Positions 5,991 to 51,474 of a stretch of 64,000 bases of DNA are shown here, in pieces. A program made the translations under genes and the position numbers. Every line of letters begins with the position of its first letter. Positions within the stretch are counted from its first letter, which is position 1. The notes under the pieces are model-generated. The model saw only the letters and a list, made by a program, of their open reading frames with translations. It was not told the DNA's origin and made no database searches. The DNA is taken from contig OY744468.1 in assembly GCA_963556145.1 (NCBI GenBank), positions 310,001-374,000 on the forward strand. Reading direction: 5' to 3'. Source of the DNA: Hygrocybe punicea. Taxonomy: Eukaryota > Basidiomycota > Agaricomycetes > Agaricales > Hygrophoraceae.

Positions 5991-6009
5991 CTTCATCAGC
6001 TTGCACATC

Positions 6010-6785: not shown

Positions 6786-6789
6786 AAAC

Positions 6790-7542: not shown

Positions 7543-7732
7543 TGGCTTTCTTGCTTGCAGTAGTAGCTGTGGTGATAGGCATTGTAGTAGACAGAGTCAA
7601 AAAGTGAGTGAGAGAAGTGAATTTGGAGTTGCAGAACAATGACAGGTTTGCAATGAGGTGGCCTCCAATGGACCACCCAAATTTCAACAACTCCACTCAT
7701 TCATTCTTATTTACCTCCACCTTCCTAGTTGT

Positions 7733-8490
7733 AAGTTATAATATGCTGTTTTCCAAAGTCACAACCTTTTGAAAAATAAATCTTTTAAAGAGGAGAAAGC
7801 CAATCAAACATAAGAACTCATGAAATAATGCACCAATTAACATGGTTTTGAAGAGAAAGTTTGTCTACTCCCTGGAAGCTATCTTTCTGTCTATTTACAT
7901 TTTTAAAATCTTTGATGTGTAGAGAGTTACAGGTGAATTGTCATTTTCAGTGACTCCAACTTGTACAATGAATATCTCCCCAACCAATGCTTGGATTGAC
8001 ATGGTTGTGGAGAGAAACTTGTTTTATTTTGCAAGGGCTACAAGGACCCCTACTGTGTTTTTCTGTATTTTGAAAATTCGAAGGAGCAGTACTGCCAGTA
8101 CACAAAAATGCCCTCTGCATAAATAACATTACAGTGATCTGCTAAAGTCCAAAATACAGAAAAACATGGTATGGGCCCTTGTAGCCCTTGCAAAATAAAA
8201 CAAGTTTCTCTCCACAACCATGTCAATCCAAGCATTGGTTGGGGAGATATTCATTGTACAAGTTGGAGTCACTGAAAATGACAATTCACCTGTAACTCTC
8301 TACACATCAAAGATTTTAAAAATGTAAATAGACAGAAAGATAGCTTCCAGGGAGTAGACAAACTTCCTCTCCAAAACCATGTCAATTGGTGCATTATTTC
8401 ATGAGTTCTTATGTTTGATTGGCTTTCCCCTCTTTACAAGATTTATTTTTCAAAAGGTCGTGACTTCTGAAAACGGCAATAATATTTTAT
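7733..8490. mobile_element. Foldback (palindromic) element
   Basis: Two inverted arms of about 335-360 bp (7733-8068 and 8140-8490) with a spacer of about 70 bp. The arms are over 90 percent identical; the outer boundary reads AGTCACAACCTTTTGAAAAA on the left and mirrors this on the right. The inner boundary is TTTTTCTGTATTTTG against CAAAATACAGAAAAA. No ORF spans it. A single diverged arm is at 1408-1690. A target duplication was not identified because the similarity fades gradually at both ends. Confidence 0.88.
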
Positions 8491-19394: not shown

Positions 19395-20672
19395 GCATAC
19401 TCTCAGAGCACATACAAAGGCTGTCGGCACCCTCTCCATTAGCCCAGATGGGCGCATGCTCTTGAGCGGAGGTAAGCCCCACCGACTTGTAACCAGACCG
19501 GATCTCATCATGAAACATAGGAGATGACGCACGAATCGTCATCTGGAACCTACTTACCGGCGAGCTTATGCAGCAGTTCTTCTGCCATTTCAATGGTTAC
19601 ATACCATCATCAGCTTGGATCAATTTTGGGGAGCCAAGTGACATGGGATTTGTTTTTGGATGTGCTGATGGATCGCTGCATATATATCGACAAGATGGAC
19701 AAATGGTAACCATTCATAAATCTCTTGCGTTTCGTTGAGCTGATGGATACTTCTAGGGATTGTTTACGTTTCTCATGTTGATTAGAGGGCACGATGGGGC
19801 GGTTGAGGATATCGTCTTCGACCCTCATTACCGCAGGATAGCTAGCGTAGGCGCAGGACATCCGCATATCTGGAGGCACTCTAGGACGGGTGAGCATCAT
19901 ATCAATTTGGATTGCTTGTCTCAAGCTCCCTAATGACAACTCAGGTGAATGGGAAAGTCTTGCGCTGGCGACCATGCAAGCCAAGCCCTATATGGCTAGA
20001 AACGTCGACTTCTGTGACAATGGCTCAAGCATTCTTATATATTATTGCGAGTCGCATGAGATGTAAGTTCATCGTCCATCAATCACCCCTTTCTGACATC
20101 TTCATTCCAGTATGTGCTATATGATTGAACCTTGGTCTATCAAGTGGGCTCGGGAATTACCAACCCGCATGTGAGTAGATCTTATCACTGCAGCTCCGCC
20201 CATATTGACATATCTAGTGGAAACGCCGTTCTATGCCCCGATTCAAAGTACATTTTCATCACCAATCTGATTGATGGAGTTGACCAGTATACGTTCCCTA
20301 CTCTAGAACGTGTGCAGACATTCTCCCATAACATCGTGCATAATTACCCTTTGCAACTGGCAACTCTACAACAGGCCTCCTTCGTGGTGGCCGGGGGAGA
20401 CAATGGATTTGCTTGTATATTCGAGCGTCAACATGGTCAACTGCTCTCACAGCTCAAGCATGGCGATGACGGTGATCTGGTGCAAGTCGTTGCAGTAAGC
20501 TCGCCAGATTGTTGGATTGGAAGTTCTGATATGAACACCTCTACAGACCCATTGGGACGCGAAGTGCTCCCAGATTGCCACAGGCTCCTCAGGTGGTACT
20601 GTCGAAGGCTCCATCAAAATTTGGACGACTTTCCGCCCGCAGGTAAGTTGTATTGCCCTCAGTCTAGGTTGT
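19395..20672 (+). pseudogene. WD40-repeat gene, 5' part (split by KDZ element)
   Basis: After splicing, the frame reads HTKAVGTLSISPDGRMLLSG, then GDDARIVIWNLLTGELMQQ, a classic WD40 unit. A second follows: GHDGAVEDIVFDPHYRRIASVGAG with PHIWRH. Later come SSGNAVLCPDSKYIFITNL, ASFVVAGGDNGFACIFE and, after another intron, an SGGTVEGSIKIW ending. Introns at about 19470-19525, 19708-19790 and 20495-20546 have GT-AG borders. The repeats stop at a donor (GTAAGT, about 20643), and the TIR of the 17.8-kb KDZ element begins within 60 bp. The likely 3' exon is at 38544-38941. The WD40 domain would be cytosolic, anchored by the C-terminal membrane segment. The insertion presumably destroys the gene, unless splicing removes the element. 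Confidence 0.75.
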
Positions 20673-20699
20673 GAAGTGTTAACGTATGCGAGCCCTTTC

Positions 20700-21018
20700 A
20701 GTGTATCTTTCCCATGATACATGGGTCAGCCGAGATGGACAATTCCCACTCCAAGTGGGCTGGCTTATCTTGGCTGACCAATATCTTTCTCCAGGGCAGA
20801 TGGCTTGGCCGAGGGTTCCATGTTCGGAGAAGCATGGGTTGGCCGAAGCAGAGGGATATATCGGCTGGCCATGGAACATGGATTGGCCGACTGCGCTGGG
20901 TATCTTGGCTGGCCATGAAAGGTGGATTGGCCGACCTGGCTGGGTATTTCGGCTGGCCATGGAACGTGGATTGGCCGACGGGTCTGGGTATTTTGGCTGG
21001 CCATGGAACAGTGTTGCC
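20700..21018 (+). repeat. Left TIR of KDZ element
   Basis: About 150 bp of unique TIR (20700-20850), then four repeat units with GGCTGGCCATGGAAC and GGATTGGCCGAC. A fragment of the same TIR family is at 49580-49847. Confidence 0.9.
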
Positions 21019-21383
21019 ACAAATGCAACAGGTGGGTTGTATCTGTTCATTCAGCCTGCTCTGAACATACCCACCTTACATCTTTGGACTCTTACCCACC
21101 CCTTGCCATGTGCCACAGATTTGGTACTTGCTCCTCTATCCTTGTGTTCTGGAATTTATCAATATTCACAATTCATCATATTCTCCTAATCACATCCTGC
21201 ACCGACTTGCAATCCCCTGAGTCATCTACTTGTAATCCACATTGCTATTTGTTGCCATCAATCACATGATTTGTCATCACCTCATGTTCACCACGAGGCA
21301 TTCTTCCATTGTTCCGGACAACGACGTTCTGCCTTTGTTCCAGACAACGACATTTGCCTTCATTCTCCTCAGTTTTTCCCTAA

Positions 21384-23603
21384 ATGAAGTGGATCACCCC
21401 AGAATTTACTAAGATCCTCGAGGATGGTTATCCTGATTTTAGGAGATCCACTGGTGAAGATCGTATTCGTGTCCTGAAAGGGATCAGGAAACTTTTAAAA
21501 AAATCGGCACAACAAACCAACACACAATGGCCCCCAAATATGCAACAGGTCTGTATATTCTAATACTACCCTTCAGATAAGCCTAACAGCATTATACCAT
21601 GAATACAGAAAATTCAAACTTGGTACCACAATCATTGGTCAAAATTGGAGAGCGACACTGAGGATGCTCCGAAATATACAAAGAAGTGGAATGCAAGGTT
21701 GGTTACAAGAGAAAAGATGACCAAGGAAATCGACGCTAGGACGGTGGAGCTGTCTGGAGAAACCGGAGGAAAGCCCGGCTACATCAAGCACTATGGCAAA
21801 GCGTGGAGTGATATTTACGGTTCCTTGACCGAACAGAAAAAACAAGAATTTGAAGCTCTTGCCGACGCCTGGAACCAGCAAGGTCCACCCTTGGAAGTCA
21901 AACGACGGTACTAATAATCTTCTTTCGTCTGCATGATGCTAATCTTCTACCTTATCCAGCTGAGCAGCAAAAGATTTCGGTAAGGCGGCGATGAAGTTTA
22001 TGAAGGACATAGATGAGCAGATGGGAGTAAAAATATTCATGTTGGTGGGATATGAAGACGAAGATGGGACTGTAACCAAAGGAAAGTGGGTCGATTCCTG
22101 CTTTGTGTCAATCACGTACTTATCTTCCCTTCCTGTGAGGTTCGAGACACCAGCCCCAGTACACAAGAAGTTCATCGGCGTCTTCAAAAATAACGGGGAT
22201 GACATTTGGACCAAATGGGATGAACATTTGGGGTCCCTTTTTAATCATGACGGTACGATTAGCCATTGTTCCATCTTTCCCATGTAATGTGTTCCAGATG
22301 AATCCGATGGAGCGAAGACCGACAGTGAAGATGATGATGGTGGTCCAACGACCAGATATGACAAAAGCCTGCCATTCAAGCTTGAGATCGATGAGGACGG
22401 TTTTCCTATGGTACCGAATGTGTCAACTATGTCATTGGTCGATGTAAGAAACATGTTTAGATCACTGATGACCATGTCATATCATACGTACCTCGACGTT
22501 GGCCAAGCTTACTGTACTCATATTCATTTGAAGGTCAGATGTGCAACAACAGCGTTGTCGCTGTTCCATGGGGAAAAATTGGACAAAATCGAAACCAATA
22601 CATCAAGGACATCTACTTTCCCTCTCACGTAGAACTACAGGAACTGTGGAAAATGAAACTCGATGAACTTCGGACCGTCCACCAATTTTGGTTGCAACGG
22701 CAGAAACTCGGTGAAAAACCATTCCGATTTAAAACCGTCCTGAAGACCGACCAGCGAGCACCAAATGCATTCGTGCAAAAAAAGAAGAAGTTCCATGCTG
22801 CTGCTGCTTTGGCCAGGACCGATCGTTCGGCGCCATCAAACTCCAGTAGGGAAACGACATCTATTCCTGCCGGAGCTGCACAATCGAGTGCTATGGGAGC
22901 TGCACAATCGAATGCTATCGGACCTCGCAGATCCAAATCGAATGTTCCAGCATTAAAGACAGTCCACCCCAAGAAGAAAACAGAAAATGCCACCAATTCC
23001 AGCAAGGGAAAACAGAAAGCAGTCAGTAGCGAAGAGGGCGACGATAGTTGGAGTGACGAGAGTGCAAGTAGTGGTAGCTTTGATGGACGTGGTGGCGACA
23101 GCGAGATGGATGACGATACATCGACGTTGAAGCTTCTGTGGACGAAAAAGAAGATGGAGAGACAAGCAAAGCAAAAGGAGCAAGCAGAACGGGTAGCAGC
23201 ACAGAACCGAGAGATGGCAAGACAGTTACAAGAAGTACAAGAGCGGGAGACATGAGAGGCCCAGGAGAGGGAGGCACGAGAGGCGCGGGAGAGGGCTGAA
23301 GGGGAGGCACGCGAGGCACGAGGCGCACAGGACAGGGAGGCACGAGAGGCGCGGGAGAGGGTGGAACTGGAGGCACGAGAGGCGCGGGAGAGGGCGGAGC
23401 GGGAGGCACGAGAGGCACAGGAGAGGGACGCACGAAAGGGCCGGGAGGAGGCCAGGAAGAAAGAGGCACAAGACGCCCAGGAGAGGGTGGCACGAGAGGC
23501 GCGGGAGAGGGAGAGAAACGAGGCACGGGAGAGTGATGTTGCACAACAAAGACGCCCAGGGAAGTTGGACAGCTCAAGAAATGCTGGTAAAAATGTGAGG
23601 TAA
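21384..23603 (+). pseudogene. Charged coiled-coil protein, KDZ cargo, two nonsense codons
   Basis: Starts ATG 21384 (MKWITPEFTKILEDGYPDFR). An intron follows QWPPNMQQ, after which IQTWYHNHW and a helical region with TREKMTKEID continue. The next exons include AKDFGKAAMKFMKDIDEQMG with VKIFMLVGYEDEDG, then a Ser/Lys-rich linker (ALKTVHPKKKTE, DDSWSDESASSGS). The protein ends in a long Arg/Glu/Ala coiled coil of AREARER-type repeats. I recognise no catalytic domain; the W.Y.NH motif is shared by a large Agaricomycete-specific family of unknown function. In-frame TGA codons at 21961-21963 (just after the second intron) and 23253-23255 (in the coiled coil, where neighbouring repeat units read CGA) interrupt it. 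The conserved frame continues past both. Confidence 0.6.
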
Positions 23604-23986
23604 AGCTATCCCGTTTGTGGGGATGCAGCTCACAATTTGCATTACCACAAGCAGTCAACCCTTGCGACGTTCTACACGGCGGAAATAGGCTTTGTTGAAT
23701 GTGCCTAAAAAGGTGATATGTGGAATAAATCATAAATATATAATACTTGTGACATGTCACTTGTGCAAGGCCCAACGTGACATAACATTTTCCTCTACCC
23801 ATGCCTCTCAATGGTTCGGTGTTTATTACAAGGAATACATTTAACAGCAGAGGAGGCAGATGATGCATTGCGATGTCAGGAATATACATGAGTAGGAAGC
23901 AGTATGAATGATATGATCCTCCCGGCTACTTACGATGGCGTTTCAGGTCTGTGGAACGTAGTGGTGAATCTGTGTGAATGATCATA
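23604..23986. other. Convergent intergenic region
   Basis: Lies between the 3' ends of the coiled-coil gene (+) and the JmjC gene (-). It has GTGACATGTCAC and CAACGTGACAT motifs near 23750-23785. No further gene is seen. Confidence 0.45.
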
Positions 23987-26900
23987 TCAGTGTATATACA
24001 AGCTGTTGAGGCAATTTATCGTACCCGAGTCTTCCCTCCGAGGACGTTTCACAGGGGGTGTTGGGGGTTGGGGTGATCCATCAAAATCATTATACACTGC
24101 ATCACTGCCAGATGAGATGTCCATTTGATTGTCATCCTCTCCCTCGTCACTGTCCACACTCTGGGCATTTAACTTCCCCACCATCTCATTTCGATCCTCC
24201 TCCTCTTCGTCCTCCTCCTCTGCCCCATCCCCATCCGTCTCCTCCTCCTCTTCCTGCAGCTCCCCCTCCTCCTCCTCCTCCTCCTCCTCCCCCTCCTCCT
24301 GCAGCTCCCCCTCCTCGTCCTGCAGCTCCCTGTCCTCCTCCTCCTCCTCCTCCTCCTCCTCCTCCCCCTCCTCCTCCTCCTCCCCCTCCTCCTGCACCTC
24401 CCCTGCCTGCACCTCCTTGCCCTGCACCGCGCCCTCCTCCCCCCCCTTCTTTTCCTGCTGCTTCCCCTCGTCACGGTCTACATCTTCCTCATTTGACATA
24501 CCCAGGGGCATGATTAGACCGTCCTCATTCCACGAAGCTGCGTCATTTGAATTTCCCACCTGCTCAGGTGGATCCTCCTCATTCGGGCCAGCGACGTCCA
24601 TTTCTTCTCCCGCATCTTCCCCAGCCACGTCGGCTGAATTTCCCACCGTTACAGGTGGATCCTCTTCCCTCTCAGTGTCCACAGCCATGTCGTTTGCACA
24701 TCCAACCGTTGCAGGTGGATCCTGGTTTTCCTCTGTGGCTACCTCTTCGCCAGCTGCATCCACTAAATCTCCCACCTTCCTAGATGGATCATCCGCCTCT
24801 TCCTCACCATCAGTGCCCTCCCCTTTTTCGCACTCATTGTCTTTCGCCTTTTCCCATGTATCTGTGTCATCCTGTACCTCGCCTTCACCGGTAGTTGTGT
24901 TGACGAGCAGAATTGGATGAGGTGGAAAATAAGAATGGGACTGATGGGTACCACTGGACGGGTCTGAATGTGTATTTTGGGGCCGGTCCAGAAGAATTCC
25001 GATGGTGGGATCTGAAGCAGCTCATTCAGCTTTGGCACCAAATCTGGCCAATTGTTTTGAAAATGTCGGCGGACCGCTGACTCAACAGCTTTGGCTGTGC
25101 AATGTGCTGGTGCCTTCACAACCCCATCCTTGTCCCATTTATACCCAACAATTGCAGCAGATAGTTCCAAAAGACTTCGTTGGAAAATGTAAGAGGGGCT
25201 GATCCAGTGGTCTTCCATGAAGACAACAAAATGTTCCGCAAACCAGATTTGGAAATGTCTATATCTGCATCGTGCAATATTCTGTTCCTCATGAATGTCA
25301 GCTGATATGGTATGGGTGTAGAACTTCCTGTTGATGATATCCGCAAGCTCGATCAGGTTTCCCACAATCACAAGGTCGAGGAAGCCGTCTTCAGTTTCGA
25401 TCTTGGGCATATGAGACTTGGTGAAGACAGTAGCTGTGCAGTGAGCATTTTAATCTTCAGGAATTTGTAAACCTCGCCCAAAGTAGCTCACATGATGATT
25501 CGTGGTTCCCCGTGAAGTACTCCATCCACATGGTGAGAAGTCGGCGCAGAAATGTACGTGTCACATTATGCTCCGCGTTTGTGATGGTATGACTCATCAC
25601 GAAAGTATGGATAATCCCATAACAGGTATCCCGTATAGTTGACGTCGCATAGAGATGACGCCCATTCACAATGGAGTGCTCCACACCGAGGACATAATGT
25701 GGGGTGCACGGCCTCATGTAACTGTGTGTTTCAGCACACATCCGAGTTGTCACGAAATATATTCCCACTTACAGCACTGAACCCTTTGTGAGCAGTAATC
25801 CTTCTGCTTCCCACAAGCCTTTCCCACTATGTTTTCTCGGCTCCCACTCCTGAGGATAGGCCTTGTTAGTCGCAAGATTGCCTGCCTTGCGATCCCATTC
25901 GGCATCCCTTCGAGGCCTCATGAGGACCCAGTACTTTGCGCCAGTCCTGACAATAACCACCGTGCCAAAGCCATCATCATCTACGTGTGTCCAAGAAATG
26001 GCTCGAGCTGTCGCTGCCGTTCCCCAAGCCAAATCGTCGTTTAAAGGCTGCTCGCAGACAAACCCCGGTCGGCCGCGGGTTTCGTGCCAAGCAACCTCAG
26101 ATGATGAAAAGGACCTTTTCACGAATAGACAGGTAAATCTCGTGTTCGATCTTCGAAACAAGGTTGCTCACCGAAATTTTGGAGGTGGGTCCAACGTCAT
26201 ATGACCCATGGGAAGGTCAAGGAAATTGAAAACCCTTTCGTTGTCAGGGTCAAGCGCAAGCTGATATAATGTCTCCAATGTGCCAGGTTTGTTCATATTC
26301 TCGATATTAGGCACCAATCGCAATTCAGCAACTAACAAAGGCACTTTAGTCGCTATGCCCAGACATCGCTCCGGAAACGGACCTTGCACTGAACGAATGG
26401 ACGACAAAGACCCCAAAGTCTCCAAACCTTCCCTATCAAACTCCACTGTTTCTACAGGGGCATTGAGCACGAGGATGTGACGATGACGAAAGATTCCTTG
26501 AATTGTTGCAGCATCCATCGACTTGAAGATGTTCCATTCCACCACGAACACACATGATGCATGAGGATCATACATTTGTTCTCTTGCACTGGGCAGCCGA
26601 TGTGGAGGAACCCCATCAATGTAACTGGATTGGATCATTTCATATGTTTCCCGCAACAATGCATGTTCCACTTTTGCCTGTATTGTGCTTACCAGTTAAC
26701 AATCAAACGGTACAAAAATCAGACATCAACGTACAACGACGGATGGTGAATAGTGCACATGTTCAACGGGTTCGTGTACAGCGTCACCATCATACATCGT
26801 GAGATGAACACCCTCTGATGCTCGCTTTATGAATCATCAGTGGGGTGGCACGTTATCGAACAACAAAAGACACACAATGGGTGCTGGACGGCTGAGCAAA

Positions 26901-28862
26901 TCAGGTTCCCCATAATCCTATCAAAATATTCATTCATGACAAATGACACGTTCTTGAATCACTTACATCTCTGGTAAGGTCGATGATCACGTTCACTTTC
27001 TCTGGCGCTTTCTTATAGTCATCCTCGTCATCATCGTCATCTTCATCCTCAAGATCATCACGTTTCTTGGACTTGGGATAACTTCTTGTCGACCAGCGAG
27101 TGGATCTTTTCTTCCTCCGATAGGACCTCCCCGGCACAACCACGACTTTCTCTTCCTTCTGGACTTTCTCTGCCTTCTGCTTCTCCTTGCCTTTCGAAGA
27201 GTCCCCAACCTTGTCCAACATTTTGGCCTGGCTTCGGGTCAACATGGAGCTCTGTCCACCTGAAGCAAGCTCCTTCGATGGTCCACCCCTCTTCTTCCTT
27301 GTTAATTTCAATTGAAGCGGTTCATCATCGCTGGACAGAGGGTTGCCTGACGCAGGCTTGTCATTCTTTGCCTTGGGGTCTGTTGGAACATTTTGTTTCG
27401 TTGCCACCGTAAGCTGACTAGCAGAGTTGGTCAGGTCATCCACTTCCTTATCTTGCAACATCTGTTGTCAGTCCCAGCGATAAATGTAGAGACAGGCGGC
27501 GTACTGTCAAAACCTGCATCGCCGAAGATCCTAAACATATTCTTGTAATGGCCCTCCAAAGCGCCCTCTCCGTTTTGGCAAGGAATGGAGGCCTTTCATT
27601 GCCCAAGGCAAACGTGATCTTTTCCTTATGTCAACTACGTCCAAGTTGGCACAAATAATGGACTCACTGCCATGAGAGATGGCCGTGCATGAGATTCATG
27701 ATTGAAACGTCGTGGGAGAAGAGTAATTATGGGTGACAGTGTGAGGCTTAGGTGGAATAGATTTCTCATCCGATCATACATTAAACCTCCGAAAGACTTG
27801 GTGGTGAGGGCATTGACAAATGAGTCTTGCAATGGTAGATCAACACTCTTGGCCATCCTGAAACCATGTGAATTATTCATTTGCGGCAGGCGTAATGTGA
27901 TTGTAACGCAATCCCAACCTCTGTAGCTTCTCCACCCATGTTGTGAAGTCGCAGTCTACATATGAGTTGCCCTGTTTTTGTACAAAATCTGACACACATT
28001 TCATATAGGACATACGTCACATACCTGGCCAAACCACGTGAATGAGAATGCAAGAAGCTCTAGATTGAGGAGGATCTGGTTGACGTCGGAGGATTCGAGG
28101 TTGACAGATGCACAGTAAAGGATCCGGATGTTCATTTCTACTTCTTTTTGGGCTGGTGTCAAGTGTGCTGGGAGAGCGACTGCAAAGATAGGGATGGTGT
28201 CCATACTGGACACCACTTTCTGCGGCACTGCCACAGCTGAAACACCCACCACTTCTTGATCTTGTTGCGTGATTAATAGACTTTTGCATGTCATACGAAG
28301 CTTCGTGATCGGCTTACTCCAGTCTCTCAGAAATTTGTAGAGCTTCAAGATGGTGTGCAAACGTCAACTTAAAACGTCTTCCCAAATGTGAATGGTGAAC
28401 TCACCTTGGTCAACTTCTCGCTCATCTCTGGTTTCGCTGATCTCCGAATTACTTTGAAACTTGGATGACGAGGCAACCCAACAGCATCCATGAGCTTATC
28501 GAGCAGGGTATAGCGAAGGATTGAGTGAGCCGCTACCAGGAGGTCATTCCGGTACACAGTAGTCCACCTTGCCACATCACGCATAGCAGAGCCATCAGCA
28601 GAGAGGTATTCTTGGATGGTTTGGGCTTTACGTGAGATTTCACCTGTGGGATTCACATAATCCAATTGCTTTGCCAGGGCCTAGCAGATAAGTTGACCGT
28701 CAATGTTACAAGGTGGGAGATTTGACGCACCATCACAGCCAAGGTGGACGGTGTGTTTCCTAGAGCAGACTGATTGCCAATTAAGGTTACGATAGCCTTC
28801 TCAAGTGAATCTTCAGCAAGAGGCGTGCCATTGACCCACGGGAAGTCCTGGAACACATTCAT
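23987..28862 (-). CDS. JmjC-domain (2OG-Fe(II)) protein, KDZ cargo
   Basis: Minus-strand multi-exon gene starting at 28862 (MNVFQDFPWVNGTPLAEDSL). A 50-bp intron (28681-28730) joins it to ALAKQLDYVNPTGEISRKAQ. Further exons end in FSFTWFGQ plus GNSYVDCDFTTWVEKLQRLG. A basic/acidic linker follows (26934-27461; LTRSQAKM, RRKKRSTRWS). The JmjC core is at 25457-26671: FNFLDLPMGHMTLDPPPKF; then LAWGTAATARAISWTHVDDD with the HxD iron ligands; GFGTVVIVRTGAKYWVL with a likely 2-oxoglutarate Lys; and, after an intron, MRPCTPHYVLGVEHSIVNGR supplying the distal His. The C-terminus (23987-24780) is a Glu-rich tail with EEDPP.TVGN repeats. JmjC enzymes usually demethylate histone lysines in the nucleus; the substrate here is unknown. 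Exact exon borders between 24900 and 27500 remain approximate. Confidence 0.78.
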
Positions 28863-29014
28863 GCTTCAGAAATTACTGCCAGACATGACAGACGCATGTA
28901 GAGAAGTGATTGACGGCGCCGAGGTGCTTGCTGATGACGACATTGCCAAAATGTTCAATTCGAGTGTATCTGAGAGCAATTCAAGAGAGGCTGAGGCTAG
29001 ATGATAAGGGTGCA

Positions 29015-29110
29015 GAAGGTATAAAAAAAAATGACGCGTCACGGTTTACTGTGATCACGTGTGACCACATCACGTGAATTGCCACATTTAAGTACACATT
29101 TCGAATTGAC
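29015..29110. promoter_or_regulatory. CACGTGA-type motif cluster upstream of JmjC gene
   Basis: Within 80 bp upstream of the JmjC start: GACGCGTCAC, GTGATCACGTGTGACCAC and ATCACGTGAATTGCCAC. The same palindromic core recurs at 32280-32430 and 47790-47890. Confidence 0.4.
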
Positions 29111-29336
29111 TGAGTTGTCAATGTGACAGAGTTATCAATGTAAAGCCATGGAAATTCTCCGAACACTGTCTAACACTGTCTAGCTATCTGTTAGTTGAAA
29201 CTCATAGGCCTTCGTCGTCCGTGAATGAGGATAACGAGATTTAGTTCCACAGAGGTTTCTGACTACAGTCGTACAAAGCATGCAATGGTAGCCGTCGTAC
29301 TTTTACGTTAGGATGATATCTCCCTTGGCACAATAG

Positions 29337-30900
29337 CTAATTCCATCTCCATTCCTGTGATGCCCAAAACTCAGCATTCATCTCCCTTGCAAACACATTG
29401 TGTCGGCTCCAGGTGGGCTTGTCAATGTTGAGACGGTCATGTACCATGTTTCGCATATAATGCGCCATGCATATTCTTTCACCGCCCTCCCATCTGCCTA
29501 CACTGTGACTGAGAACCTTGCCACAAATTTCGATGACGGTTCCTGGCGAATAAGAGAACGTAGCATCCAACTCAGGGATGGCTAGTTCCGCGTTCGTATG
29601 TGTCCCACAACTCGCCAGCAAATCATATCATTCTGGACACCCTCCAGCATCTCTGTGTCGAGTTGTAATCCTGTTAACGATAACGGCGATTCCAGTGTAA
29701 ACAGATGTCCACTCCTTAGCATTTTCGTGTGTTTCCACGTTCTCAATCGTTTCGCCGTCCCGGATTTTCGTCACAGCCAGAAGGCCAGCTGTGTACAATG
29801 ACTGATGGGTTAACGCAGTAATTGCGTTGAAGATCAGCTCGCTGGGTTCGATTGCAGCCATCCACATGGTGGCTTCAGTTGTTCGAAGAGTTGTCGACGT
29901 GATCAACCTATCGGTAAGTCGCTGAAAAAACAGGCGGTCAGCTCATGTAAAACAGATGACTAACTAAAGGTGTTACCTCTCTACCCTGAGCAAACCATGC
30001 TGCGGCGAAATCCACTGATCCTGGGTGAAATCGTGGGTTTGGAGGTGGAAAGAAAATGTTTGGATCTTTCCTCCATTGCGGATCTTTCCCTTTCTCAATT
30101 TTTTTGAGGGACTCTGAATAGGATTCTTCCAGAATTTCGGTTATCATTTCAGCACTGACATTCAATTCCTCCTGTGTCACAGTGGGTACTGTCAAAAACC
30201 ATATTTCCGGGGGGCAAGTGACTCACAATACGTCTTGGAGTTACAACATCAGGTAGATACCAGACCAAAATTGAACCACACGTGTCAATTACTGTAGCTG
30301 GTTCATCCACATGTCCGATGTGAATCTCCTGAAAAAACCTGAGTAGGTTTTCATTGTCAGCATCCGAAGTGTCCTTGATATTCTTCACTCGATTTGCCAG
30401 TCTATTCGCATCCAAGGGCACAATTACTTTGAGGCAAGATGTCAGTCTAAATATGCCGACTTTCATGGCAGCAACGTACTAGGGTTCAAAATTGCGGCTG
30501 CCACAGTGAGGAGAACCCTCTCCAGTTCGGATTCTGAGACCGTGTCCGACTTGGAGAATGTTTCGCAATCTGGGGCCGAATCTCCCAAGCCCTTGCTAAC
30601 TGGAAGCTGATCCCTCAGCATCATCAAACGTGATCTACAAAACATGTAAGATATGACATTGAAGCAGCATGGATCTGACCTCAGCCGTTTGCATTCCTCT
30701 ACAGGAGACTTCGGAGGGCGCATGCCTGACTTCCTATAATACGATGTAGTGTTTGAGAGGATTCTTCTCAGCCTCGTCCACATATGTTTCTTTAGATTTG
30801 GAGCCAGACCACAATCCTTTGTTTTCATGTTGACGGAAAGCGAGGCTTCCATTGCCTTGGATTGTGCATTCTTTGAGGGGATTCTGTCTGCGTACATAAT
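29337..30900 (-). pseudogene. TET/JBP-type 2OG-Fe(II) dioxygenase, KDZ cargo, one nonsense codon
   Basis: Four or more exons, read from 30900 downwards. Blocks in order: basic N-terminal region (LAPNLKKHMWTRLRRIL); ANRLANRVKNIKD; HIGHVDEPATVIDTCGSILV with WYLPDVVTPRR; PNPRFHPGSVDFAAAWFAQG; LTHQSLYTAGLLAVTKI. The catalytic part is WTSVYTGIAVIVNRITTRHR followed by DAGG, giving the HxD iron pair. Then come YSPGTVIEICGKVLSHSVGR (distal His) and GERICMAHYMRN, whose Arg would bind 2-oxoglutarate. This matches the TET/JBP group reported with basidiomycete KDZ transposons (Iyer and colleagues), which oxidise 5-methylcytosine or thymine. A TGA at 29628-29630 (coding strand) falls ten residues after HxD, between CPE and YDLLASCG; a single change from a sense codon would explain it. 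The first exon is uncertain. Confidence 0.8.
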
Positions 30901-31159
30901 GGTTGAGAAGTGAGATTGGTTGAGAATTGGGAAGGTCGGTTTTAGTACACATGGTGGCCTCGAGGCGGTATAATTTAATAAGGTGTTATTATGGTTAGAA
31001 CTTTTAGCATTTAATAATTTGCTGCATACAGCAATTTCACCATGTCACAAGAACGACCAACTATGATATAACACACAATATAGCACAAAAAATGGCAATG
31101 CCGAGCAGATTCAGTGTATATACATATACAGACCATGCACATTTATAAGCTGATTGATA

Positions 31160-32200
31160 CCTGTGCCGTTTGGTGAATGATAGAATAGTCAAAAGTACAG
31201 CAAGACTTACTTTTCTTGACGTCAACAAGGCCACCAGGCCCACTACAGGGAGGTTGCCTGGCAAGGAAATCAGGGGGATTCACCCGCCCTTTCATTCCAG
31301 GTTGACCGGCAGCGGCAAGCACCCATTTCTGAGGATGGGCCACCACCGGTTTGGCATGCACTGATGCCACAACTTGCGCTATGAAGGAGTGGTCTGAAAT
31401 AAGTAAAATTGTCAGCAAGCCTATTCGCCGCGACAAAACATGATGGACAGAGCAGCTGTAATGAAAGGGAATCACTACTATAAGATGACGTATATCACCT
31501 GTGAGTCAACCTGTCAACATGGGTAATATTAAAATGAGCAGACACACACCTCGGTTGTAGCCAGGAATACCGCCAGGCCCGCTGCAAGGAGGTTGCCTGG
31601 CAAGGAAATCAGGGGGATTCACCTGCCCTTTCATTCCAGGTTGACCGGCAGCAGCAAGCGCCCATGTCTGAGGACCTGCCACCATCGGTTTGGCACGCAC
31701 TGATGCCACAACTCGCGCTCATGGATAACTTATCTGAACACAGTAAAATTGTCAGTAAGCCTATTCACCGCCACAAAACACGATGGAAAGAGAAGCTGTA
31801 ATGAAAGTGAATCACTACTAAAAGCGCAATATTAAAATGAGAAGACACACACCTTGGATGCAAACGGGTATACCGCCAGGCCTGTTGCAAGGAGGTTGCC
31901 TGGCGAGCAAATTGGTAAGATTCACCCACCTTTTCATTCCAGGTTGACCGGAGGCAGCAAGCACCCATGTCTGAGGACCGGCCACCATCAGTTTGGCACG
32001 TACTGATTCCACAATTAATGCATGTGGAAACCTTGGCAGGAAGCTGTAGAAGATCAATCGCAGTGACAAACAATCAGTCACTTATGAATATTCTAAGTGA
32101 ATGGCATTCAGCAGAGACATAACAAACCACTCACCATTCGGGTAGAAGAATGATATGCAACCTAAAGTGCGTGGCATCCCATAATGCGAGATTGTTGCCC
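31160..32200 (-). CDS. Gene with triplicated exon upstream of TET/JBP
   Basis: Three tandem units of about 310 bp (near 31205-31385, 31555-31715, 31860-32010) each encode the same roughly 57-residue exon. Its core is VRAKPMVAGPQTWALAAAGQ, then PGMKGQVNPPDFLARQPPCS and GPGG. Each has a GT donor after its GPGG segment and an acceptor before VASVRAK, so the duplication preserved reading frame and introns. The likely first exon is near 32150-32225 (IVVPGNNLALWDATHFRLHI). The units are 80-90 percent alike. Pro/Gly/Cys content suggests a small folded or extracellular-like module, but I recognise no family. It could be the 5' half of the TET/JBP gene or a separate gene. A degenerate copy of exon 1 and one unit is at 47930-48390. 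Confidence 0.55.
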
Positions 32201-32279
32201 GGTACAACAATCTCGCAGTGTGGGATGTACAATGATGAGGGGGAAAACAACGAAGGATGGGAAAAAGAATTCAATCAGC

Positions 32280-32430
32280 GCTTGTGATTGGTTGTATTTG
32301 TTCACGTGACAAACGTGGTTGGTTTTCATCACGTGAAATGACTTGACTCACATGATGTGGCCAAGTTTGGATGGTGACAAGTCACGTCCGTGATGTCACG
32401 TTTGGACGTCCAAACGTGACATCACAGGCG
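32280..32430. promoter_or_regulatory. Bidirectional promoter region with 36-bp palindrome
   Basis: A perfect palindrome at 32390-32425 (half-site GTGATGTCACGTTTGGAC), preceded by TCACGTGACAAACGTGG, CATCACGTGAAATGA and GACAAGTCACGTCC. It sits between the minus-strand triplicated-exon gene and the plus-strand ORFs starting at 32477. Consistent with clustered E-box/CRE-like sites for a bZIP or bHLH factor; no direct evidence of function. Confidence 0.5.
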
Positions 32431-32439
32431 TGACTCGTT

Positions 32440-33110
32440 GTTGTGTGCATTCATATACTGGCTAGGAAAGTCGTAAATGGCAGTGTTGCAAAGGCCCGTA
32501 GTTACGGAAACGTCAGTACTGTATATTGTTACATTTGAAATTCATGCTCTGGGCAGGAAGCTTGTGAATGGCACTTTGTTGCACAGACGTTTAATTACAG
32601 CGTCGCTGCCGAATAATGAACACCTTTGCCTTGATTTCAACTGTATATGTGGGCGGTTGGTGAAAATTAACGTTCACAGGTTTCACCGACAATCAAGGGA
32701 TGTAGCACACCTGCAACAAACCTAGTGGCTAGGTGAACGAAATATCCCATACGCATACGAACATTTTCGTCCACACCAAACATGTGTGGCCAGCCTCCTT
32801 TCAGGAACGGCGTTCGTGCATGGCCTGCGTCTTCCGATCGCATCATGCCGAGCCATCGGACAGAATATTGTTCTTGTTCGGTGACGGCCGCATGAAAAGA
32901 CACGAATAGATTTCAGGCACATCCTAAACAATCAAAAGTGGGGTCAGTGTAATGTTGTAAACACACTGGGGGAAGCATTCAATGTCGTGAAAAGCAGCAG
33001 CTTTACCAGGCCACACGTCAACAAGAACCGCTGTAAATGCGGCGTTCCACATTTCCCTGGTACAGTGCCCTACCAAGGATACAACAGCGCTGTCATTTGC
33101 TGCCGTACCA
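32440..33110. other. Unresolved coding fragments
   Basis: A plus-strand frame (32477-32725; MAVLQRPVVTETSVLYIVTF) includes NNEHLCLDFNCICGRLVKIN. Minus-strand frames at 32667-33172 also look protein-like. I could not decide which strand is coding. Confidence 0.3.
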
Positions 33111-33515
33111 GTGATTATTGCCATGCAGCAAGATGGTAGTGTGTTGGAATCAAGAGAAATTACCTTGGCCAACGTTGATGGTGCGACTCAGGATGATGAT
33201 TGCGGCATCTACATGCTGCACTTCCTCCGAATCTTCTTAGAAAACCCAATAGAAATGATGAACATCATGCTGGGTGACGAGATTGCTATCAGAGCTGCCA
33301 AAGATCCATGGCAAGACGGGCGGATACCCACGCTCCGTCAGGAACTCCAGGGGGCGTTGTGCAGGCAAGCTGTTCGTAATTGCATTCAGGGTGATGCGCT
33401 GGAAAGGGTTGTATTGGAAGGAAAGGAGGGTTCATCCGGTGATGTTAAATTGGTCCCCGGTTGGTTTGAGGCCCCAACTATGGTATCAGATTCTGACAGT
33501 TCATCGGATTTGTAA
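33111..33515 (+). CDS. Possible Ulp1-like (C48) peptidase C-terminal fragment
   Basis: 134-codon frame containing NVDGATQDDDCGIYMLHFLR, resembling the Asp..Cys-Gly core of Ulp1/SENP cysteine peptidases (usually Q..xDCGxYVL), and FLENPIEM. Ulp1-like peptidases are known companions of KDZ transposases. The upstream His-containing half was not found, and the start Met is arbitrary. The fragment ends 140 bp before the KDZ transposase start. It could be truncated or unrelated. Confidence 0.4.
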   Translation: MIIAMQQDGSVLESREITLANVDGATQDDDCGIYMLHFLRIFLENPIEMMNIMLGDEIAIRAAKDPWQDGRIPTLRQELQGALCRQAVRNCIQGDALERVVLEGKEGSSGDVKLVPGWFEAPTMVSDSDSSSDL

Positions 33516-33658
33516 CATTTTCCTGTCCTCAAATGTATTTGTATATCAAGCGACGTAATAATCTTTATTATTATCCATGTGTTTTGCCTCGTGTATTGGT
33601 CTTTATAAGGCGTGTCATTTTCTCACTTTTCCCACACTCATCTAACTATTGTTCATCC

Positions 33659-36600
33659 ATGCCGAAATCAAAAGTCATTTCCCGGTCGGGAAAAAAAAAG
33701 GAATTTGCCAGAGAGGTTGAATTTATGGTCGTGGAAAAGAAACGAGGTGGAAAGACTGTCAAGGCTCGTCCAGTTATTCGTCCGCCAAGTCCTGTAAAAC
33801 AATCACATAGGAGTGAAGATCTTCCCTTGCCCTCAACGTCGTTTGTGGAAGAGGAGGACCCTCAGACAAGGAGACATCGCAATAAGCGTGGAAAGGTTGA
33901 CACAACTATTATCTGTACGACTTGATTTTGATTGCATGTCAATTAGACACAGAATGATGAAATGGAAGCCTGGAAAGCAATTCACAAGCAATACCTCTCC
34001 GAACTCTTATCATCTGAGGCCCCCCCTTCCGATGTTACATGCCAGTCATGTCTGATGGCCGATATCACCATTCGTTGCCCTGATTGCTATGGTTGCCCTT
34101 CGTTCTGCCAGCGTTGTTGTTTGCAGACACACATTCATAATCCATTCCACAGAATTGAGATATGGAATGGCAGATGTTTCCTGAAACATGACCTTAATAC
34201 GATTGGCCTGGTCATGCATCTTGGCCATGGTGGAGGCGATTGTCCGTCATACAGAAAAGATGGCCTCCAGCCATCTGTCGAAGATACATATCTGCATGAT
34301 GTTCTTATGTCAGGTGGTGGTGAGGAGGACGATTTGGATCTGGCTTTGGCAGTTCACGCCGAGGAAGATATCATAACTGTCACTCATATGAATGGAATTT
34401 ACCGACGTCGAATCCGATGGTGCTCCTGCCCAGATGCCCCCACTCAAGATATTCAACTACTTCGAATGCATTTGTATCCTGCAACAGCAAAACGGCCATC
34501 GTCAGCATTCACTTTCCAGCTCCTGGATCATTTCTACATTGATTCGATGGAGTGCAAAACATCTGCAAACAACTTTTATAACAAGTTAAGGAGACTGTCT
34601 TCCAATGCATTTCCAGATACATTGCCAGTTCATGATATACTGGTTGTTTTGTTACATTGTGCATACAGAACGGAGTACTGAGTTATGGTGTTCAGGATCG
34701 TTATCGTGAGCTAATGAGGGTGTCAAGACAGTGGCGATACTTGCACCTCAAGAAACGATTCGGCTTTGGGCATGACACTGAGAGGGAGCCTGGTAATGGC
34801 GATCTGGCATTGTTTTGCCCTGCATGTCCCCAGCCAGGGATAAATCTTCCGCAGAACTGGATGGATAGACCGCATCAGTGGGTCATTCTGATCAGCTTTC
34901 ATGTAGTTCCACACCAAACAGGGAAACAGGTGGCTTTACAGGCCCAGCATCGTCGTCGATGGCAATTTCAAAGCTGAGCAGATTAACATGCGGAAGCCTG
35001 ATGACGACGTTGGGCTTATTGATGGACAAGGCTATATGGTTGAGGATGCACCTTATCATGCTCATCTGGCAGCTTCCCTGGAGTCCAAAGAGGTATTTAT
35101 CGAATTGTGAATTTCGTGAATGCTAAATCAATGATCATGTATCAGAGGTCACAGTGCTCCAATCACAAGGCCGTCAACCAAGCAAACGCCAATCGTCATA
35201 ACTTATATGCTACTGGCATCGGTGCATGTGCATGTGCCAAGCATGGTTGCTTTGTACCCCACAGTGTCGTCGACTTCCAGAAGGGTGAACGGTTAGTCAT
35301 GTATTTTGAGCTATGAATCGTGACAAATTTATTAAAGAGTCTGCACCAGACACATGAACGTTGATTATTCGATATGCAATGCTCTCAATAGGCTGTGCCA
35401 CAGTGGTATCACCCAAGCACTGGTGGAATATGATATTGCCTGCAGTTGGCTGATCAATTTTGCTAAAAGGGTTTCCGATTCCGACCACCTCACTCTCCCT
35501 GAGGCGCTTGAGATCATTGGGGCTGTGGGCAAGTTTCATCTTGGTGCACATGTTGCGAAGTGTTTTGCCCTATTCAGTCTCAACTTCGTTCGTGGTGCTG
35601 GTCAGCAGGATGGTGAAATTTTGGAGACACTGTGGGCTATCATCAACAAGATTTCCAGTTTTATTCGTTTCATGTCAAAATCCCAACGACGTGAGATCTT
35701 GGATGACCTTATGAGGGATTCGAATTGGAAGAAGTTGGTAGGAATGGGTAGGTGATTCATAGGCATGTCATCAATACATATCATCACCATAGCTGTCACA
35801 CAGTTCGGTCTTTGTTGAAATGATATGATAAAGCAGTAGATGGAATGCAGGAAATGAAGGCAGCCTTTGAGGAGCTTTCCGAAACTGTGGATGAGCAAGT
35901 GCTGGTGGAGTGGAAGGAAGAAGAAAGAAGGGCAATGGATTTCCATGGTGACTACTTGAGGGTATTCGACGTCAGAATGGAGAAAGGTTTGTCTTGTAAA
36001 GTGTTGGTGTTTTGGACACGGTAATGATGTTTCACCAGCACCATCGCAGGCTGAGATCAGGTTGAGACTGATGACAGGGAATCCCAAAGATGTAATGGCT
36101 GGTCGGGTGACCATCTTAAATGAAGGAATAAACATAGAACAAGCACAGTAGGATGTATCCTCATTCTCATCGATCGTCTCTTTGACATTTGTTTACCCTA
36201 CAGGAATACTCTGAAAACAACGGCTCGTGCTGTTCAAAAAACGGGCAGTTTCACAGACAAGGCAAATCTGGAGGATCGGCGAAATAGACTGCAGTCTTGG
36301 ATCGACTCGTTCCACAGAAAAATACAAGGAATACTTGGTGAAGATGTGGATGAGTGTAATCTGGTCAATTATGATCCCACTGCTGATGACTGGATTGTGG
36401 ATGTGGATGAGGAGGGTGGGGTAGACGAAGAAGATGATGACCATGTTGCAGAATGGCCAGAAAATTGCCGACTCACAATGCCATCGACCTTAGGAGTGGA
36501 GGAATGTGCTCGGCTGGGTTTGGAAAATTTGGTGGCTCAGGAGGTGGAACTCAGGGTGGGCCAAGCAAACGATTGTTTGGAAAACTTGAGGATGACACTG

Positions 36601-37222
36601 GGTGAGAAAATGGTAATCTTTCGAACCTCTGTTCGTGGAGCAAACAGCCAGAAGAAGAAGACTCGAGCATGGGACGACATACATGCCATCCAGCAAAAAG
36701 TTGGTAAATATGCCACCAGCTACAGGCAGGCTCGTCGAGCATTGGTCAATCTAGGGGGGAATGCAGACATTTTGGATCGTTTCAAAGTGCTGAGGCAGGA
36801 GGATATCAAGATGAGTGGTGATATGCTTGAGGAGAATAGAGTGGGCCAGAGGAGTCACAAGCTGCCCTGGATCTGGCGGAGGAAAGAAAGGAATAATACT
36901 GGTGACAACGATTGGATGCAAGAAGGTGAATGGTTCTGCTACAGCAATTCATGGAAGATCTTACTGCTATACAGTGTATCGTGTAAACTGGCTCCGTGGC
37001 AAGGCCAGATATGATCGGTGGTCTGAAGAATTGCAAAGCGTCAAGTCAGAAATGGGTAACGTGATTCGTTGGCTGCAACACCAGAAGGTGCAATGGGAAG
37101 CACGTCGTGACAAAGTTGGTCTGGGACTGAGGGGGCACATCTGTTATGCGGAAAAACAAATGGTAATGTGGAGGAATATGATAGCACAAGCAGAAACTGC
37201 CTTTTCCAACAAGATGGAGTAA
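33659..37222 (+). CDS. KDZ-family transposase, apparently intact
   Basis: Splices conceptually into one open frame: 33659-33895, 33947-34642, 34696-34877, 34942-35092, 35146-35291, 35350-35747, 35837-35986, then exons near 36044-36148 and 36205-36925, ending in the frame that stops at 37222. The basic N-terminus leads to a cysteine cluster (CQSCLMADITIRCPDCYGCP, SFCQRCC, H..PFHRIEIWNG). Then come GIYRRRIRWCSCPD and LLDHFYIDSMECKTSANNFY. The catalytic residues of this DDE-type fold can be assigned to IVVDGNFKAEQ, VEYDIACSW and GQQDGEILETLW. Further motifs are ATGIGACACAKHGCFVPHSV and VDFQKGER. The C-terminus is helical. I saw no stop or frameshift in the reconstructed exons. The product should cut the TIRs at 20700 and 38543 in the nucleus. 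Confidence 0.88.
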
Positions 37223-37339
37223 TACATATTATTAGAGAAGATATAGTTGAACAGAAGAAAGTAATATATTTTTAACCAACTGGACCATAACCATCTGCCA
37301 AGAATGACCAGCAAGCCAATATATGGTATTTGCCAACCC

Positions 37340-38543
37340 ATGTCCCATGGCTGACGGTATACTAACCAGGATTGGCCAATCCATGGCCAACCGAAATACC
37401 CAGACCTGTTGGCCAATCCACCTTTCATGGCCAGCCGACATACCCAGACCCATCGGCCAACCCACGTTCCATGGCCAGCTGAAATACCCAGACCTGTCGG
37501 CCAATCCACCTTTCATGGCCAGCCGACATACCGAGGCCCGTTGGCCAATCCATGTTCCATGGCCAACCGAAATACCCAGACCCATCGGCCAACCCACCTT
37601 TCATGGCCAGCCGACATACCGAGACCCGTTGGCCAATCCATGTTCCATGGCCAACACAAATACCCAGACCTGTCGGCCAATCCACCTTTCATGGCCAGCC
37701 GACATACCCAGACCCACTGGCCAATCCATGTTCCATGGCCAACCAAAATACCCAGACCTGTCGGCCAATCCACCTTTCATGGCCAGCTGACATACCGAGA
37801 CCCGTTGGCCAATCCATGTTCCATGGCCAACCGAAATACCCAGACCCATCGGCCAACCCACCTTTCATGGCCAGCCGACATACCGAGACCCGTTGGCCAA
37901 TCCATGTTCCATGGCCAACACAAATACCCAGACCTGTCGGCCAATCCACCTTTCATGGCCAGCCGACATACCCAGACCCACTGGCCAATCCATGTTCCAT
38001 GGCCAACCAAAATACCCAGACCTGTCGGCCAATCCACCTTTCATGGCCAGCTGACATACCGAGACCCGTCGGCCAATCCATGTTCCATGGCCAGCTGAAA
38101 TACCCAGACCCATCGGCCAATCCATGTTCCATGGCCAACCGAAATACCCAGTGTGGTCGGCCAATCCACCTTTCATGGCCAGCCGACATACCCAGACCCG
38201 TCAGCCAATCCATGTTCCATGGCCAGCTGAAATACCCAGACACGTCGGCCAATCCACCTTTCATGGCCAGCCAAATTACCCTGGGCTGTCGGCCAATCCA
38301 TGTTCCATGGCCTGCCAAGATACCCAGACCGGTCGGCCAATCCATCTCCCATGGCCAGCCAAAATATCCAGACCGGTTGGCCAATATATCCCCCTGCTTC
38401 GGCCAACCCATGCTTCTCCGAACATGGAACCCTCGGCCAAGCCATCTGCCCTGGAGAAAGATATTGGTCGGCCGAGATTGGCTGGCCCACTCGGAGTCGC
38501 AATTGTCCCTCTCGGCTGAGCCATGTCTTGTGGAAAAGATATG
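37340..38543 (-). repeat. Right terminal region: 44-bp array plus TIR
   Basis: About 24 units of 44 bp alternate two types: GGCCAATCCACCTTTCATGG with CCAGCCGACATACC, and GGCCAATCCATGTTCCATGG with CCAACCGAAATACC. Six units form a higher-order repeat of 264 bp, visible as near-identical segments at about 37552 and 37816. The unit length and composition keep long frames open on both strands (up to 346 codons); these are not taken as genes. Beyond 38390 the sequence is the unique TIR mirroring 20700-20850. The CCATGG and TGGCCA cores are palindromic and could be transposase-binding sites. Confidence 0.9.
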
Positions 38544-38941
38544 CTGTAAGGTGTGCATATGCCTACCAGGAATATACTGGTATGGCCCATGAGCGCAAGA
38601 GCTCGACATCATACGGGATGCTGTCTCTTCTCCAAGTCATCCTCATCGTCGCTGTCACAAGTATTATTGTGACGATGGCTCATTATTATCTCCCTCTCTC
38701 CGATGATGCTACTGTCGCCCTCCTCTTGAAGCATATCAACGCTGAAGACAGAGCGCTCAAGAGTGGTGGCTCACCCCTTGGTGCAGTTGGTAAAATGCTA
38801 GACACAGTTCTCGTGAGTCACCCAGAGGTGGTTACTCCACATTTAATGGACGATGCATGCAAATCAGGCTGGATTCTAGCCATGGACAAGAGGCAAATCC
38901 CAGAAGACCTAGAAGAACAGGATTTCAGTAGACTACTTTAG
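38544..38941 (+). pseudogene. WD40 gene, 3' exon with membrane segment
   Basis: Frame with GMLSLLQVILIVAVTSIIV (one membrane span) and a C-terminal tail DDATVALLLKHINAEDRALK, ending EEQDFSRLL at 38941. It lies immediately outside the KDZ element's right TIR, in the same direction as the WD40 part at 19395-20672. Agaricomycete WD40 proteins of this type often end in a membrane anchor, so I infer that the two parts were one gene before insertion. The exon start is not fixed. Confidence 0.55.
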
Positions 38942-49925: not shown

Positions 49926-50335
49926 CACTTCAGTCAACCACCTAGCCCCAACTAACTAGATGTAACACAACTCTGTAGGTGTTCCATCTAAGTGTTCATA
50001 TAACCATGGTACTCCCAAGGACAATTTATTGCCCCAGGGACATTCTGACTGTAGGCAAGCGTAGGGTTATATTTTTATCCCTAGGGACAATTTCCAAAGA
50101 AGACCAAGGGCTGAATAGTTATCCCAAGGGATGATTTTGACAAAGGATCATGGCCTGAAATATCATCCCATGGGACATATTATAATACCATCAGGGAGAA
50201 TATATATTTTCCTGGGATATATTCTCAACCAGGTGTTGCCTCAGCTCAAGCTGATGTTTTTTGAAAAATGGCTATAATATTGTAAATAAAATAGGTAAAA
50301 TTATGAAAATATTTGTGTGCATAGATTAAAAGGCC

Positions 50336-50836
50336 TAGGGACTGTAATTCCATCCCTTGGGATATTTATTTTGTCCCTTGGGATATTTATTTCATCCCTT
50401 GGGATATTTATTTTATCCCTTGGGCTATTTACTTTATCCCTGGGGATATTTATTTCGTCCCTTGGGATATTTATTTCGTCCCTTGGGATATTTTTTTCAT
50501 CCCTTGGGATATTTATTTCATCCCTTGGGATATTTATTTTATCCCTTGCGCTATTTACTTTATCCCTGGGGATATTTATTCCGTCCCTTGGGATATTTAT
50601 TTCATCCCTTGGGCTATTTACTTTATCTCTGGGGATATTTATTTTATCCCTTGGGCTATTTACTTCATCCCTGGGGATATTTATTCCGTCCCTTGGGATA
50701 TTTATTTCATCCCTTGGGCTATTTACTTTATCTCTGGGGATATTTGTTTTATCCCTTGGGATATTTATTTTATCCCTTGGGATATTTATTTTATCCCTTG
50801 GGACATTTATTTTATCCCTTGGGATATTTATTTTAC
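50336..50836 (+). repeat. 21-bp minisatellite, left arm
   Basis: About 24 units of TCCCTTGGGATATTTATTTT plus one base. It can be read as IPRDKIN heptapeptides on the minus strand. Mirrored in the right arm at 55378-55878. Confidence 0.95.
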
Positions 50837-50839
50837 CTG

Positions 50840-51310
50840 AGAAAAGCCCATGGGACATATAGAATATCTCATGGGATACTTATCTTGTCTAGAAAACAGC
50901 CCATGGGACATGTAGAATATCCCATGGGATACTTATCTTGTCTTAGAAAACAGCCCATGGGACATAGAACATCCCTTGGGATACTTTCACTATTACAGAA
51001 ACAGCCCATGGGACATGAAAAATATTGCTTGGGATATTTACGTTAACCAAGAAAAAGCCCATGGAACACATAAAATATCCCTTGGGATATTTACTTTACC
51101 CACAAAAAAGCCCATGGGACATATAAAATATCCCTTGGGATACCTTTGTTATCGCAGAAACAGCCCATGGGACACATAAAATATCCCTTGGGATATTTAC
51201 TTTACCCACAAAAAAGCCCATGGGACATATAAAATATCCCTTGGGATACCTTTGTTATCGCAGAAACAGCCCATGGGACATATAAAATATCCCTTGGAAT
51301 ATTTACTTTA
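50840..51310 (+). repeat. 64-bp minisatellite, left arm
   Basis: Units alternate AGCCCATGGGACATA and AATATCCCTTGGGATA with variable spacers (AGAAAACAGCC, ATCGCAGAAACAG). Mirrored at 54905-55375. Confidence 0.9.
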
Positions 51311-51474
51311 CTCAAAAAAGCTCCAATCTACAGCCTGAGGCTGGTGGGACTGCCTGCTTGCTCAGCATCTGCCAAGTCACACAATAATAATCATAGCAAT
51401 ATAATTTTAATTTACCAACCACTCAAAATAGATATAGCAAATTAAATAATTATTTTACCTAAATACATGGTATT

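Follow-up and report, generated by a model that had tools for sequence, protein, structure and literature searches.

TET-carrying (TET+) Kyakuja elements, which are KDZ transposons of Agaricomycetes, generate 7-bp target duplications and have 5'-CA..TG-3' termini without terminal inverted repeats (TIRs), according to Kojima 2025 (PMC12730594). Here we describe an element from Hygrocybe punicea, found in a 64,000-nucleotide stretch of contig OY744468.1 (assembly GCA_963556145.1, positions 310,001 to 374,000; hereafter the window), in which one pair of TIRs encloses a KDZ transposase gene (K), a TET/JBP gene (T) and a third gene with JmjC-like motifs (J). Set beside the TET+ Kyakuja elements described in PMC12730594, it is alike in its KDZ transposase, its TET/JBP gene, its 7-bp target duplication and the CA at one terminus, and differs in its TIRs of about 170 bp, in the GA at its left terminus and in the JmjC-like gene that it contains. 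The element thus has the 7-bp duplication of Kyakuja and lacks the TIR-free 5'-CA..TG-3' termini, and by analogy may be called Kyakuja-like in its target duplication and type of TET.

In basidiomycetes, an earlier study reportedly placed KDZ, TET/JBP and further proteins together in one neighbourhood, and the window element resembles such associations in holding all of these. That study, Iyer 2014, lay outside the literature that we searched, in which no report of KDZ or Zisupton together with JmjC was found; because a JmjC association in it was not checked, the novelty of the link between KDZ and JmjC is provisional. The words JmjC and jumonji do not occur in the portion of PMC12730594 available to us, nor are they used in the main texts of PMC7641404 and PMC8889193, as far as these are accessible. 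A histone-modifying gene on a DNA transposon has a parallel in HarbingerS and MuDR, which carry SET histone methyltransferase genes (cited in PMC12730594); the enzyme there is a methyltransferase and not a putative demethylase, and the available text mentions no TET partner.

On balance, we think it probable that the window element is a KDZ cut-and-paste transposon equipped with a two-enzyme anti-silencing kit consisting of TET/JBP and the JmjC-like J protein. The anatomy of the element and the co-mobilisation of its genes are firm; that it counters silencing at two layers is a good hypothesis drawn from sequence.

Anatomy and co-mobilisation of the element

The main features of the element are as follows (window coordinates).

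20690..38555: complete KDZ transposon, 17,866 bp, ends set against 10 other copies
20683..20689: target duplication on the left, 7 bp (CGTATGC)
38556..38562: target duplication on the right, 7 bp (CATATGC)
20690..20865: left TIR (arm 20694-20865, extended to 20690 by copy comparison)
38380..38555: right TIR (arm 38380-38551, extended to 38555 by copy comparison)
20833..21010: subterminal array on the left, four 44-bp repeats
37380..38394: subterminal array on the right, 44/88-bp repeats amounting to about 23 units of 44 bp
23987..28943, minus strand: J gene, approximate model (frames and splice sites)
25012..26677, minus strand: exons of the J core, which carry H-x-D, Lys and the distal His and are open in the window copy
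24925..24935, minus strand: site of a private 13-bp deletion in the acidic tail of J
29340..30897, minus strand: TET/JBP gene, with a premature TGA at 29628-29630 in the window copy
33659..37221, plus strand: KDZ transposase gene with CxC2 cluster, exons modelled at 33659-35746

The single TIR pair around the whole element, as proposed in an initial annotation of the window, was borne out by inverted arms that are 88% complementary, with the ends adjusted to 20690 and 38555. These positions come from the ends of ten other copies, which give GAGCCCTTTCAG at the start and, reading inward, CACACCTTACAG at the end. Target duplications of 7 bp, judged by eye in 11 copies, are exact in 7, carry one CpG mismatch in 3 (including the window copy, whose two 7-mers differ at one base inside a CpG) and are absent in 1. 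When the element and one duplication are removed, a 54-nt intron (GTAAGT...CTACCAG) is restored between open exons, and this coherent empty site indicates a clean insertion into a host gene, whose product, judged by eye, resembles a WD-repeat protein. The insertion in its intron (window 20643-20682 with 38563 onward) may alter how that gene is expressed. The KDZ transposase of the initial annotation was also upheld: profile searches matched KDZ (E 1.5e-48) and CxC2 (E 2.9e-25) above the Pfam cut-offs, and the six exons modelled, which reach 35746, are open. With its KDZ domain and associated CxC cluster, the window element is a KDZ transposon. The 44-bp subterminal tandem repeats, possibly transposase binding arrays, have GGCC-containing cores in this family and in a second one described below (L115, L116), and the number of units differs among copies.

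Across the 92.2 Mb of genome searched, 260 TIR ends were found with up to 3 mismatches, compared with 0 for a reversed-pattern control, so the ends are not chance matches. We paired left-type and right-type ends facing each other within 60 kb, using 99 left-type ends (100 of the 117 were listed, and a chimeric one was dropped) together with the window end, which was put in by hand, and 82 of 83 right-type ends (the same chimeric end left out). Among the ends used there are 44 pairs. All three of J, T and K lie in 23 of them, J and K in 1, and none of the listed genes in 20; no pair has T or K without J. The JmjC-like and TET/JBP genes therefore travel together within the same TIRs, the trio being present in 23 of the 24 gene-bearing pairs. 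The opposite expectation, that other copies of the TIR pair never include the JmjC-like gene, fails because J lies in every gene-bearing pair found (24/24). For the other refuting condition, J in the same syntenic place in strains that lack the transposon, the target duplications and the restored empty site serve as a substitute. Seen from the single window, J could be a host gene trapped between transposon ends in this copy alone, by chance or as a one-off; given at least 59 J loci, the TIR-pair counts, the target duplications and the coherent empty site, this is exceedingly improbable, and the table of TIR pairs rules out host-gene or chance placement of J. The 20 gene-free pairs span 66 bp to 36 kb, many of them 6-10 kb (e.g., C1:5217609-5225734 and C34:1276025-1284771); these recurrent spans make non-autonomous derivatives possible, and some pairs may hold other cargo.

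The genome contains at least 59 J loci (from the best 85 of 225 candidates scored, with a query that included one short unspliced intron and also served the first Pfam and homologue searches), 57 T loci and 61 K loci. When loci with gaps below 22 kb are joined, 40 clusters have J, T and K, 5 have J and T, 1 has J and K and 4 have K and T; J stands by itself in 13, T in 7 and K in 16. Of 122 TET_JBP matches, 99 were typed, the weakest being left out, and 59 of these loci have J within 16 kb. Of 186 Pfam-KDZ matches, 141 were typed, and within the same distance 13 of these loci have J and 19 have T. Thus, J accompanies TET-bearing KDZ elements and not KDZ elements generally. The 40 typed TET_JBP loci without J within 16 kb (e.g., C2:1447657 and C36:791626) include several of the strongest Tet_JBP matches and presumably represent further lineages of TET, either host or mobile.

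The J/TET/KDZ trio recurs in a second KDZ family. Its J group (J2) is 49% identical to the window J and lies next to other KDZ matches. Of 22 J2 loci typed (from a later search scoring the best 120 of 144 candidates), a TET match lies within 16 kb of 12, and TET and KDZ matches together lie that near 10, compared with 3.3% and 1.7% at random positions (for which the sizes of two contigs were guessed). In complete trios, T is on the strand of K in the J2 family and on the strand of J in the window family, so the gene order has been rearranged. The terminus of the J2 elements is GAGCCCTTGCAGCGTATC, which is close to that of the window element, and 44-bp repeats come next; 11 of the 15 J2-type ends listed face a J2 gene at 4.6-10.8 kb, the corresponding distance in the window being about 4.8 kb. 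The ends known for this family are of one type. A further group (J3) comprises 5 loci, with T near 1 and K near 0.

The TET/JBP gene and the JmjC-like gene

The T protein scores 48.4 bits against the Pfam TET_JBP cut-off of 34.9 (with the stop of the window copy read as X). Its matches among solved structures are CcTet of Coprinopsis cinerea (7vpn, 7w5p, 8jkk), which is the nearest, and a second TET/JBP entry; the alignment with CcTet (E 7.6e-26) extends over most of the protein and brings the H-x-D motif, the distal His and the Arg region into register. These we take to be the catalytic residues, and they are well kept in the family: all 30 loci have H, D and the distal His, and 28 of them the Arg. 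The four T exons are open in 16 of 30 loci. The Tet_JBP domain together with these residues identifies T as a predicted TET/JBP dioxygenase. Of the enzyme described in the initial annotation, the domain and the visible motifs stand, and the window copy is interrupted by a premature stop, in which it differs from CcTet.

The J protein has an N-terminal helical part, probably belonging to the same gene, followed by a charged linker, a JmjC-like core, a C-terminal part and an acidic tail. The core contains W-x-H-x-D, a Lys 17 residues after the His, and T-P-H-Y-V, and its five exons are open in the window copy and in 14 of 30 loci overall (window included). In an alignment of diverse rows, H, D and K are invariant (10/10), as is the distal His in the five rows that reach that far; among J loci the counts are 31/32 for H, 32/32 for D, 32/32 for K and 31/31 for the distal His, the sole exception being a degenerate locus. 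At the far end of this range the relatives are otherwise only 43-54% identical. By analogy, J would have an H-x-D...H metal triad and a 2-oxoglutarate-binding Lys, a likeness to JmjC enzymes that we assume from the spacing in KDM4A. In two J relatives, matches to JmjC_2 cover the distal-His motif (E 0.0031 and 0.093, both below the cut-off), and in one relative AraC-type cupin, Cupin_2 and JmjC_2 all match weakly there. J thus resembles JmjC histone demethylases and JmjC_2 hydroxylases in its H-x-D motif, Lys spacing and distal His, and differs from both in falling below the threshold of either Pfam family. The JmjC-domain protein of the initial annotation is therefore retained as to its conserved residues and its sub-threshold JmjC_2 resemblance; the JmjC domain itself (PF02373) was not matched.

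We consider it quite likely that J is an oxygenase; that it is a histone demethylase proper is conceivable and falls somewhat short of probable. The protein homologues found are only unnamed or "hypothetical" entries, and a weak match of J to DUF7270 (E 0.027) was set aside.

A proposed anti-silencing role weighed against its alternatives

In the mechanism that we favour, TET would oxidise 5-methylcytosine on the DNA of the element, and J would act as a 2-oxoglutarate/Fe(II) JmjC-type oxygenase on a chromatin protein, most likely stripping methyl groups from histone lysines. Together, the two enzymes would let a silenced element be expressed and move.

To describe constraint on these genes, we computed pairwise Nei-Gojobori ratios of nonsynonymous to synonymous divergence (omega) over BLAST-aligned exons. 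Against a sister subfamily, omega is 0.16 (260 codons, synonymous divergence [dS] 0.32) and 0.18 (479 codons, dS 0.41) for J, 0.10-0.12 (182-187 codons, dS 1.0-1.2) for T and 0.16 (520 codons, dS 0.38) for K; 0.14 comes from another J locus and 0.30 from a degenerate one. These values show purifying selection on J, TET and KDZ between subfamilies. Comparisons with the 49%-identical family are unreliable (26 and 35 codons, omega 0.11 and 0.06, dS saturated). The synonymous divergence of J is similar to that of K, and that of T is about three times greater, for which the simplest reading would be that TET has been exchanged between element lineages and J has not; this comparison uses a single T exon, taken from three sister loci, and a single sister K. 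Tentatively, then, there may be a KDZ class in which a JmjC-type histone demethylase is the steadier partner and TET/JBP is swapped among lineages, giving self-encoded machinery for demethylating both DNA and chromatin.

The same divergence can be read in another way. As J and KDZ diverge alike and TET more, J may serve the transposase: a protein with a JmjC/cupin fold could hydroxylate a non-histone target (transposase, ribosomal or repair protein) and so aid transposition without erasing histone marks. The only family resemblance of J is to JmjC_2, below the cut-off, and JmjC_2 includes ribosomal-protein hydroxylases. However, the charged linker and the long acidic tail that J has in other copies would suit a chromatin protein, and its partnership with TET points to an epigenetic function; we regard a non-histone hydroxylase as somewhat unlikely.

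Evidence that the element is probably itself a target of silencing comes from its decay. Among close copies, C-to-T changes affect 515 of 6681 consensus CpG sites (7.7%), versus 51 of 11933 CpA, 30 of 8599 CpC and 20 of 7736 CpT sites (0.26-0.43%), which is an 18-30-fold excess at CpG over other contexts; 27 of the 33 stops in the J and T exons of these copies are CpG transitions. CpG methylation followed by deamination would be the natural cause, and the excess makes it likely that the element is subject to the very silencing that TET would counteract. Such decay is also what a methylation target would be expected to show. Persistent methylation of this kind also fits enzymes that rewrite marks instead of erasing them, TET leaving a lasting oxidised methylcytosine mark and J contributing to a self-limiting or host-tolerated state. 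In C. cinerea, oxidised methylcytosine is reported from Kyakuja and further transposons (cited in PMC12730594). Purifying selection in the element lineages fits a benefit to the element, and alone it cannot separate erasing from rewriting. We consider rewriting unlikely.

Several observations tell against an anti-silencing kit that erases marks. Old copies have decayed despite the kit, and the CpG decay shows that methylation was not kept off over time. In the window copy, the in-frame TGA (present in 1 of 28 close copies) lies between the H-x-D motif and the distal His and Arg, and because of this position the window TET is probably not functional. In the window J, the loss of 13 bp near 24930 puts the acidic tail out of frame; the 13 extra bases are present in 28 of 28 other loci aligned across the site (one, L069, seen twice; L038 is unaligned across it and L098 is without a match). 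Close-copy omega for singleton and shared changes, respectively, is 0.56 and 1.01 for J and 0.88 and 0.73 for T, which adds no support beyond the J singletons, although such weak values are expected if most copies decay neutrally. The trio is also incomplete in places, with neither T nor K within 16 kb of 9 of 55 window-family J loci and no T within 16 kb of 10 of the 22 J2 loci. Finally, PF02373 matches the genome at 12 places, none of them a J locus; single J sequences and profiles gave nothing above threshold in Pfam, NCBIfam and PDB; and a J profile compared with host JmjC proteins aligned the same motif at a probability of only 1.5-3.7%.

These searches would also suit a J that is no oxygenase at all, its H-x-D and H motifs being coincidental, and that acts as a transposition accessory or DNA-binding protein. 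A match to Arm-DNA-bind_3 points the same way and was too weak to accept (4 of 10 rows, best E 0.06). Against such a protein stand the H, D, Lys at +17 and distal His kept through relatives of such low overall identity, and the faint JmjC_2 and cupin matches at the distal-His motif of one relative; we regard this alternative as unlikely. The anti-silencing kit of TET and J is the reading that we retain.

Remaining cargo and implications

Three further features, all named in the initial annotation, lie between the TIRs.

21384..23600, plus strand: left gene (limits approximate), previously described as a coiled-coil gene
31143..32073, minus strand: repeated exon-like units
32991..33515, plus strand: Ulp1 (Peptidase_C48)-like C-terminal fragment, below the Pfam cut-off

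The left gene matches no Pfam family above cut-off, and an HMG-like reading of it, made by eye, is without Pfam support. In the supposed triplicated-exon gene, two exon-like units of about 255 bp (31231-31484 and 31570-31824) match each other, and the third was seen by eye only. The possible Ulp1-like fragment matches over no more than a short C-terminal block with the Cys (E 0.0014; score 19 bits, cut-off 20.7). Outside the element, the adjacent window positions 6001-8000 are heavily CpG-decayed, with the lowest observed/expected CpG ratio of the window (0.03) and a GC content of 0.39. Unlike elsewhere in the window, the TpG+CpA ratio falls to 0.80-0.91 at 50001-56000, with observed/expected CpG as high as 1.34 at 52001-54000.

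DNA transposons carrying TET/JBP genes were already known. The J family, for which our Pfam and NCBIfam searches return no family above threshold, may bear on how such transposons escape layered silencing. If J is directed at chromatin, the element would be a two-layer counter-defence, available in both open and decayed copies within one genome.

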